A stretch of 64,000 nucleotides of DNA from Alphaproteobacteria bacterium (GTDB lineage Bacteria > Pseudomonadota > Alphaproteobacteria > UBA8366 > Aestuariispiraceae): NCBI GenBank assembly GCA_024743195.1, contig JANSXE010000010.1, forward strand, positions 1 through 64,000. Direction: 5' to 3'. The translations under genes were made by a program, and so were the position numbers. The notes beneath the pieces were generated by a model. It saw only the letters and a program-made list of their open reading frames with translations, made no database searches and had not been told where the DNA came from. Shown in pieces: positions 52,784 to 63,350 of the stretch (position 1 is the first letter of the stretch; the number at the start of each line of letters is the position of its first letter).

Positions 52784-52960
52784 GCCGACCCCGCCCGAAA
52801 TCTGGAAGCGGAATCCGCGCTTTGTGTGCAGTGCATTGACGCCGTGCGCCGGGGCGTCAAATATCCCGCAGCCCGAACGACGGGCGCCGCGGCCGGCGTG
52901 ACGCCTGTGCGACGGCGGCGCGTCGTCCCCCTCAACGCGAACGGGAGCCCCTGTGAGACC

Positions 52961-53737
52961 ATGTCCTACGAAATGATCCTGACCGAGACGCGCGGGCCCG
53001 TCGGCCTGATCACGCTGAACCGCCCGAAGGCGCTGAACGCGCTGTGCGCGCAGCTCATCGAGGAGTTGGGCCGGGCGCTCGACGACATGGAGGCGGACGA
53101 GGAGATCGGGGCCATCGTGCTGACCGGCTCCGAAAAGGCCTTCGCCGCCGGCGCCGACATCAAGGAGATGGCGTCCAAGAGCTTCATGGACGTCTATCTC
53201 CAGGACTTCATCACGCAAGGCTGGGAGCGCATCACCACCTGCCGCAAGCCGATCGTGGCGGCCGTTGCGGGCTATGCGCTGGGCGGCGGCTGCGAGGTCG
53301 CCATGATGTGCGACTTCATCATCGCCGCCGACACGGCCAAGTTCGGCCAGCCGGAAATCACCATCGGCACCATCCCCGGCTCGGGCGGCACCCAGCGCCT
53401 GACCCGCTTCGTCGGCAAGTCGAAGGCGATGGAGATGTGCCTGACCGGCCGGCTGATGCCGGCCGAGGAGGCGGAGCGCGCCGGCCTGGTGAGCCGCATC
53501 GTCCCGGCGGACGAGCTGCTCGACGACGCGATCAAGACCGCGACCAAGATCGCCGAGCTCTCCCGCCCCGCCGTCTTCATGGCCAAGGAGGCCGTGAACA
53601 AGGCGTACGAGACCACCCTGGCCGAAGGGGTGAAGTTCGAGCGGCGCCTGTTCCACGCCACCTTCGCCACCGAAGACCAGAAGGAAGGCATGGCGGCCTT
53701 CGGCGAGAAGCGCACCCCGCACTGGAAGAACCGGTGA
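52961..53737 (+). CDS. Enoyl-CoA hydratase
   Basis: This 258-residue crotonase hydrates trans-2-enoyl-CoA in beta-oxidation. It has [11 protein letters not shown] for the oxyanion hole, [18 protein letters not shown] with the first glutamate and [20 protein letters not shown] with the second. It is very close to the short-chain enoyl-CoA hydratase (EchA/FadB1x) type found beside rpsT-dnaA in many relatives. The ATG at 52961 is directly before conserved sequence. Confidence 0.94.
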
Positions 53738-53793
53738 GGACGCGCCGCTGACGCGGACGTACCGGGCGCCGCCGGCGCCGCCGGCCCCCTCGG

Positions 53794-53891
53794 CTTTGAT
53801 GGGCCGGCTTTGATGGGCCGGCTTTAGTGGGCCGGACTTGACGGGCTGAACTTGACGGGCTGAACTTGACGGGCTGGGCTTGACGGGCCGG
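53794..53891. repeat. 14-bp tandem array in the rpsT promoter
   Basis: Seven exact-length units of 14 bp run without gaps. Units 1-3 read CTTTGATGGGCCGG or near; units 4-7 read ACTTGACGGGCTGA or near. The last four each carry TTGACG, at 53838, 53852, 53866 and 53880. The last one is the -35 box of the rpsT promoter. Confidence 0.9.
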
Positions 53892-53908
53892 ACGCCCGCC
53901 GATATAAG
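53880..53908 (+). promoter_or_regulatory. Sigma-70 promoter of rpsT
   Basis: TTGACG (53880-53885) and TATAAG (53903-53908) are 17 bases apart, an ideal spacing, and lie about 100 bp before the rpsT start. The -35 box is the last of four TTGACG copies in the tandem array. Confidence 0.8.
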
Positions 53909-54004: not shown

Positions 54005-54268
54005 ATGGCGAACCACAAGTCGGCAGAGAAGCGCATCCGTCAGACCGCCAAGCGCCGGGCGCGCAACATGGCGCGCCGCAGCCGCATCCGCACCTCGGTC
54101 CGCAAGTTCGAGGACGCGATGAAGGCGGGCGACAAGGCGGCGGCCGAGGCGGCCTTCGCGAGCGCGATGCCCGAGATGCATCGCGGCGTCACCAAGGGCG
54201 TCGTTCACAAGAAGACCGCCGCCCGCAAGCTGAGCCGCCTGGCCAAGCGCCTCAAGGCGCTCGGCTGA
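54005..54268 (+). CDS. rpsT: 30S ribosomal protein S20
   Basis: This 87-residue protein is basic, helical and binds 16S rRNA early in assembly. It starts [21 protein letters not shown] and ends [19 protein letters not shown], the complete S20 pattern. A strong sigma-70 promoter and a terminator (54343-54373) frame it as a single-gene unit. Its place before dnaA is typical of alphaproteobacteria. Confidence 0.96.
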
Positions 54269-55050: not shown

Positions 55051-55542
55051 CTAAACCCGGAATCGGCGCGTGGAGTCAAACGCCTCCCGCGGGTCGATCA
55101 AGGCGCCGCCGTTGGATCGCGAGAGGCGCGATTTCCGCACGTTTCCGCTCCGTTCAGCGCCCCGCCCGGCCGTTCGCTCCGGGGCGCGAATGTCAACCGC
55201 TTTATTTTCCGAGCCGTCGGTTTGCGCGCTTGATTCACGTCGCGCGGCTTGGGTACAGTCATGGGCGTCGCGGTTGGTCAAGAACGCCGCCGACAAATAA
55301 TGAAAAAGGTGTCGAACGCCAGTTCGACGTAAGCCATCGGGGGGCGAGGAGTTCCGGACGCAAGAATTTTAGTAAAATAGGCGTCAATTACTTCTCCCAA
55401 CGGCTTTTTTGTTTTCCCTTCTTGGGCCTTCATTTGAGGCGCCCTGGGGTGGATGGGCGGCGCGAAAGCGTCGGACAATGGCGGGCGCCCGGGGTGGGCG
55501 CGGTCCGGCAGGGTCCGTTTTGCGCTGGCGGCGGCGTGCGGT

Positions 55543-55653
55543 GGAGAACTGGGCGGCGGAGAACTGGGCGGCGGAGAACTGGGCGGCGGAGTAACTGGGC
55601 GGCGGAGAACTGGGCGGCGGAGTAACTGGGCGGCGGAGAACTGGGCGGCGGGG
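55543..55653. repeat. Seven-unit 15/16-bp tandem array upstream of dnaA
   Basis: AACTGGGCGGCGGAG occurs seven times, starting at 55547, 55562, 55577, 55593, 55608, 55624 and 55639. The spacing alternates between 15 and 16 bases because two units carry an extra T (GTAACT). Confidence 0.9.
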
Positions 55654-55665
55654 CGGCGCGGATGA

Positions 55666-55712
55666 ATGCGCGTATGAGCCAAGGCGCGTATGAGCCAATG
55701 CGCGTATGAGCC
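55666..55712. repeat. Three-unit 16-bp tandem array upstream of dnaA
   Basis: GCGCGTATGAGCC is repeated three times at a 16-base period, starting at 55668, 55684 and 55700. It follows the AACTGGGCGGCGG array. Confidence 0.85.
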
Positions 55713-55886
55713 ATGGGCCGCCGCCGATTTCGAGGCGGTTTGGCGGCCGCAATCGGGGCGCGCGCCGAGGGCGGCGCATCGGGTGCGGTCGGACGGGATG
55801 GTGCGGGCGAAGGTGACAGGCGGGTCACGGCGAGCCGTCGGCGGCCGGAAGGCGTCGGCGGGAATCCGAAAGGCGGGTTGGTCGGC

Positions 55887-63167: not shown

Positions 63168-63350
63168 GGAAATAGTATTGTGTCCCCGTTATTGTCTGTC
63201 CCCGTTATTGTCGTGTCCCCGTTATTGTCCCCGTTATTCAAAAAGCGGGAATATCGGGGGCATAGTACTTTTTGAATATCGGGGACATAGTACTTTTTTA
63301 AGGAGTGTCGGAGGATATAGGAGACACAGTACTTCTCTGAATATCGGGAG
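63168..63350. repeat. Second GTATTGTGTCCCCG repeat cluster, decayed
   Basis: A forward copy, AATAGTATTGTGTCCCCG, at 63171 is followed by shortened copies GTCTGTCCCCGTTATT, GTCGTGTCCCCGTTATT and GTCCCCGTTATT (63194-63238). Inverted relatives with ATATCGGGGACATAGTACTT lie at 63249-63273, 63274-63300 and, more altered, 63314-63338. The order (forward block, then inverted block) is the same as at 2454-2716. Confidence 0.8.

Follow-up and report, generated by a model that had tools for sequence, protein, structure and literature searches.

The window analysed here, a stretch of 64,000 nucleotides from a marine bacterium that is a close relative of Marivibrio halodurans, carries rpsT at 54005-54268 of its forward strand, encoding the 87-aa ribosomal protein S20 (Pfam PF01649, Ribosomal_S20p, E = 7.9e-30). 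Upstream on the same strand lies a gene that we take from its translation to be enoyl-CoA hydratase-like, its open reading frame spanning 52826-53737 and its true start probably further in. The 267-bp gap between position 53737 and rpsT contains two sigma-70 type hexamers near consensus, a −35 box TTGACG (53880-53885, plus strand) and, 17 bp from it, a −10 box TATAAG (53903-53908, plus strand), which place the predicted start of transcription at about 53915. The same gap contains a seven-unit tandem array that overlaps this predicted promoter head to tail, its last unit holding the −35 box; it is a tandem repeat associated with a promoter.

Direct reading and scripted slicing resolve the array into seven gap-free 14-bp units over 98 bp (53791-53888), and TRF also calls it; the preliminary description had the number and packing of the units right but started them at 53794, whereas they begin at 53791 and end at 53888. 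The first three units (53791-53832, plus strand) read CGGCTTTGATGGGC twice and then CGGCTTTAGTGGGC; they are diverged, lack TTGAC, and carry TTTGATG, TTTGATG and TTTAGTG where the hexamer has been lost. Units 4-6 (53833-53874, plus strand), CGGACTTGACGGGC followed by TGAACTTGACGGGC twice, hold spare TTGACG hexamers at 53838, 53852 and 53866, and unit 7 (53875-53888, plus strand), TGGGCTTGACGGGC, holds the fourth at 53880, so that the last four units contain the hexamer as had been described; beyond them come CGGA and then unique sequence. Units 5 and 6 probably arose by recent copying. The array matches itself at 73 of 84 positions at a lag of 14 (87%), while in 20,000 composition shuffles identity never exceeded 52% at lags of 8-30. 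All of units 4-7 carry CTTGACGGGC, with their three variable positions confined to the remaining four bases (4/364, ~0.01, a post hoc figure); such invariance may be a sign of selection on the −35 box.

The working arrangement is confined to the last unit. At 15-19 bp from the three spare hexamers the best match to TATAAT is 3 of 6 positions, which leaves the upstream −35 copies without an alternative −10 box and upholds the earlier statement that only the last TTGACG stands 17 bases from TATAAG. A genome search found no other copy of the array apart from 23 bp of weak similarity in sequence that looks coding, ruling out a dispersed repeat family as its identity, and no known RNA element was found at the locus.

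Comparison with relatives strongly supports TTGACG-N17-TATAAG as the rpsT promoter. In public genome records, TTGACN-N16/17/18-TA[TC].. precedes rpsT at 73 of 80 other loci; the spacer is exactly 17 bp in 64 of the 80, and the −10 box is TATAAG in 56. Six of 30 relatives' loci were missed by the start motif used, four of which (L005, L015, L017 and L019) nevertheless show the promoter; a generic promoter scan passed over the rpsT site, since it requires the −10 box to end in T. The promoter call made beforehand is thus supported, as is the assignment of the working −35 box to the last unit, which lies 17 bp from TATAAG in an arrangement conserved across relatives. None of ~100 other rpsT loci, M. 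halodurans included, has a tandem −35 box, and the array is indeed unusual for a ribosomal protein promoter, at least for that of rpsT; where a second TTGAC occurs farther upstream, as in a few relatives, it is never in tandem at a fixed period.

The nearest relative examined and the only other member of the genus compared, M. halodurans (L031), whose S20 is 90% identical, has a single −35 box and no array at its rpsT site, GGGCTTGACGGCCCGCGCCCGCGCCGATATAAGCCCGCGTCC. It shares the 18 bp CGATATAAGCCCGCGTCC exactly with the present genome, and its GTGGGCTTGACGGCCC is matched by unit 7, which therefore continues the ancestral site, with the other six units as additions; M. halodurans has a single unit where the one genome of the present species has seven. 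Given that no relative examined has a tandem −35 box, the array is best understood as a lineage-specific expansion at the upstream edge of an old promoter.

A genome search for TTGAC-N9-TTGAC returned, besides rpsT, G000:C29:246935-246967 on the minus strand. This is part of a second tandem −35 array (G000:C29:246913-246967, minus strand; locus L115) at the promoter of hrcA, the heat-shock repressor gene, identified by its HrcA domain match. It sits between hrcA and a divergent gene that is presumably rph, encoding RNase PH, and it comprises three TTGACG hexamers repeated every 14 bp, with 17 bp between the last one and TACAGT; read towards hrcA, the sequence is TTGACGCTGCTCGA TTGACGCTGCTCGA TTGACG-CTGCTCTGGGGCGTTCC-TACAGT. 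Among 24 relatives with a located hrcA start, 22 have a TTGAC-type −35 box ~17 bp from a TACATT-like box and no array; most relatives have a single TTGACG-N17 site, and M. halodurans a single TTGACC-N17-TACATT. A genome-wide search for TTGAC, 4-30 bp, TTGAC, 17-19 bp and TANA returned only the rpsT and hrcA loci, whose arrays have nothing but the TTGACG hexamer in common. The two core promoters, rpsT TTGACN-N17-TATAAG and hrcA TTGACG-N17-TACATT, are deeply conserved across Rhodospirillales-like genomes and are usable as reference RpoD promoters in that group.

The genome as a whole is rich in tandem arrays. We counted 61 intergenic arrays in 800 kb (7.6 per 100 kb, a density from a sample and a home-made gene caller that probably overstates intergenic length), which extrapolates to roughly 300 in total. 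The M. halodurans sample of 400 kb yielded 24 (6.0 per 100 kb), and small samples of 80 kb from each of five further relatives yielded 0-2.5 per 100 kb. The density in the Marivibrio-like genomes G000 and G001 is clearly above that in these five relatives, perhaps pointing to a repair or replication trait. The intergenic units are mutually unrelated, and most periods that are not multiples of three fall at 11-17 bp, with 14 among the commoner ones (7 of 43 such arrays). Only 3 of the 22 intergenic arrays on contig C9 have any weak match in the M. halodurans sample, the regions compared overlapping partly. Elsewhere in the window, the region upstream of dnaA (55538-55713) holds a 15/16-bp array of ~7.5 copies (GCGGCGGAGAACTGG), some units with one additional base, together with a second array whose 16-bp unit occurs in 2.9 copies (GCGCGTATGAGCCAAG); nothing of the kind appeared in M. 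halodurans from rpsT to the limit of the stretch covered (L031 to 4800). AT-richer repeats with GGGGACACAATACTTTT- and GTGTCCCCGTTATT-like motifs, at 2470-2676 and 63180-63298 of the window and at G000:C9:67771-67849, look like a dispersed repeat family, and no transposase gene was recognised among the open reading frames listed beside them at the two window places.

The intergenic arrays are not strongly biased towards any gene orientation, on which ground we reject a preference of arrays for promoters. The genome contains 28 distinct TTGAC-N16/17/18-TAYA sites, two of them inside arrays, and with ~2.1% of intergenic bases in arrays about 0.6 promoter sites would be expected there; the Poisson probability of at least two is ~0.12, a rough figure, and special targeting of promoters thus need not be invoked. 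Two promoter arrays are about what chance placement allows in so array-rich a genome, and the 14-bp period that they share is mildly notable.

We consider it likely that the rpsT array reflects slippage-driven expansion of the old promoter's upstream edge, tolerated and with little transcriptional effect. The starting point would have been a housekeeping promoter of the sigma-70/RpoD type, TTGACG-N17-TATAAG, from which a 14-bp segment with the −35 box was multiplied head to tail by replication slippage or unequal recombination, leaving the promoter-proximal unit as the ancestral one that presumably still works with the unchanged −10 box. Expansion upstream of the −35 box would be tolerated because the 17-bp spacing is kept, whereas a spacer lengthened in the same way would no longer give a working promoter; the layout, with the array upstream of the −10 box, bears out the earlier suggestion that units could be gained or lost there without altering the working spacing. 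Spare −35 boxes that lack a −10 box, an array of 64% GC and decayed distal units together suggest that transcription is most likely altered little. The same process, in an array-rich genus, probably also gave the three-unit hrcA array. Both slippage as the cause and the near-neutral effect are what we infer from these patterns; on this view a genome prone to stutters probably produced the spare −35 copies as a harmless by-product. Against such a by-product stands the finding that two promoter arrays of the same 14-bp period and register exceed the simplest expectation of 0.6.

The foremost alternative, which we regard as rather unlikely, is that the spare TTGACG copies loosely hold sigma-RNA polymerase and that their number tunes rpsT and hrcA, initiation being raised by cumulative or sliding capture or lowered by occlusion. 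Four intact copies with an invariant 10-bp core, and the second such array at hrcA, are consistent with this, as is biophysical work in E. coli in which expression can be either increased or occluded by additional sites for polymerase binding (PMC8791639). Promoter tandem repeats of M. tuberculosis, moreover, vary in copy number at 10^-2 to 10^-3 per chromosome and have been argued to change promoter strength with that number (PMC12817950). However, none of the spare boxes is paired with a −10 box, the hexamer is gone from three distal units, and a large E. coli study found that −10 and −35 boxes do not repress, expression being modulated only by gains that overlap existing boxes (PMC11661796). 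Nor is there a class-wide excess: doubled, correctly spaced −35 sites gave 73 matches tabulated from 385 alphaproteobacterial genomes, which is not above a reversed-pattern control (itself imperfect, as its letters differ in coding bias), and copy identity reached at least 60% in only six of the 73, the rpsT array included. With doubled sites at control frequency and few of them tandem, we reject a class-wide −35 array device, and a scan of 59 relatives' genomes, judged by eye, revealed no other clear multi-unit −35 array. A modest effect of the spare boxes on transcription may exist, but that −35-only arrays form a working device tuning housekeeping promoters such as rpsT and hrcA by unit number, with core spacing fixed, strikes us as more doubtful still.

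The remaining readings fare worse. That a DNA-binding protein, a repressor or activator covering the rpsT −35 region, uses the repeats as operators would fit a 14-bp repeat placed at a common operator position, but we judge it very improbable, given that the array sequence is absent elsewhere in the genome (save for the 23-bp coding-like match), is missing from the sister species M. halodurans and shares only its hexamer with the hrcA array. Action at the RNA level, with the array folding into a 3' end or terminator for the transcript of the preceding gene, is slightly less plausible again: the strand folds better than shuffles (−78.4 versus −70.5 kcal/mol, z −2.1), yet so modest a score is expected of GC-rich tandem repeats pairing with their neighbours, and the array has neither a U-run nor a terminator call. 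An assembly artefact, for which the single genome of the species leaves room, is least credible of all, the 98 bp being shorter than the usual read length, the units distinguishable and similar kinds of arrays present elsewhere in the sister genome. UP elements are A/T-tract sequences, and the preliminary idea of an UP-like role fails on base composition: such an element would have A/T-rich tracts at about −40 to −60, whereas the array and the −40 to −60 region are 36-38% AT, and the repeat itself 36%.

If slippage is indeed the source, the rpsT and hrcA arrays illustrate how it can build clusters of promoter boxes at conserved promoters while leaving those promoters unbroken. The hrcA case raises the interest somewhat above that of a single oddity and makes the effect of −35 copies testable, while the abundance of arrays in the genus lowers it. 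With −35-only arrays of the same 14-bp period at two unrelated housekeeping promoters whose core spacing is intact, the genome offers natural material for testing whether −35 boxes in excess are beneficial, harmful or without effect.

Within a limited set of search terms, we found no described array in the open-access literature that repeats only a −35 box, and the nearest parallels differ from the present one. The promoter repeats of M. tuberculosis at dop, lpdA and cysG (PMC12817950) are likewise tandem arrays at promoters, presumably arising through slippage or recombination, but at dop each unit copies 57 bp of the promoter region, whereas the 14-bp unit here comprises the −35 box and its flank only; those repeats vary in copy number, while the rpsT array is known from one genome. 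The repeat tract of N. meningitidis nadA (PMC2791445) resembles the present array in its position, ahead of the core promoter but still within the promoter region, where variable length is possible. It differs in that the length of the nadA tract determines how far apart repressor operators stand, whereas here the repeated unit is itself the −35 box and has no known operator, and in that nadA is an adhesin gene and rpsT a housekeeping one. E. coli promoter islands (PMC11661796) also contain more promoter boxes than a single promoter needs, but they are ~1 kb stretches dense in −10 and −35 boxes and tied to horizontally acquired DNA, in contrast to the tandem, −35-only boxes at a conserved promoter described here. 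There is also a likeness to the ordinary alphaproteobacterial rpsT promoter of the sigma-70 (RpoD) type, with TTGACG-N17-TATAAG in the same place, to which this lineage, unlike its relatives, has added three extra intact copies of the −35 box.
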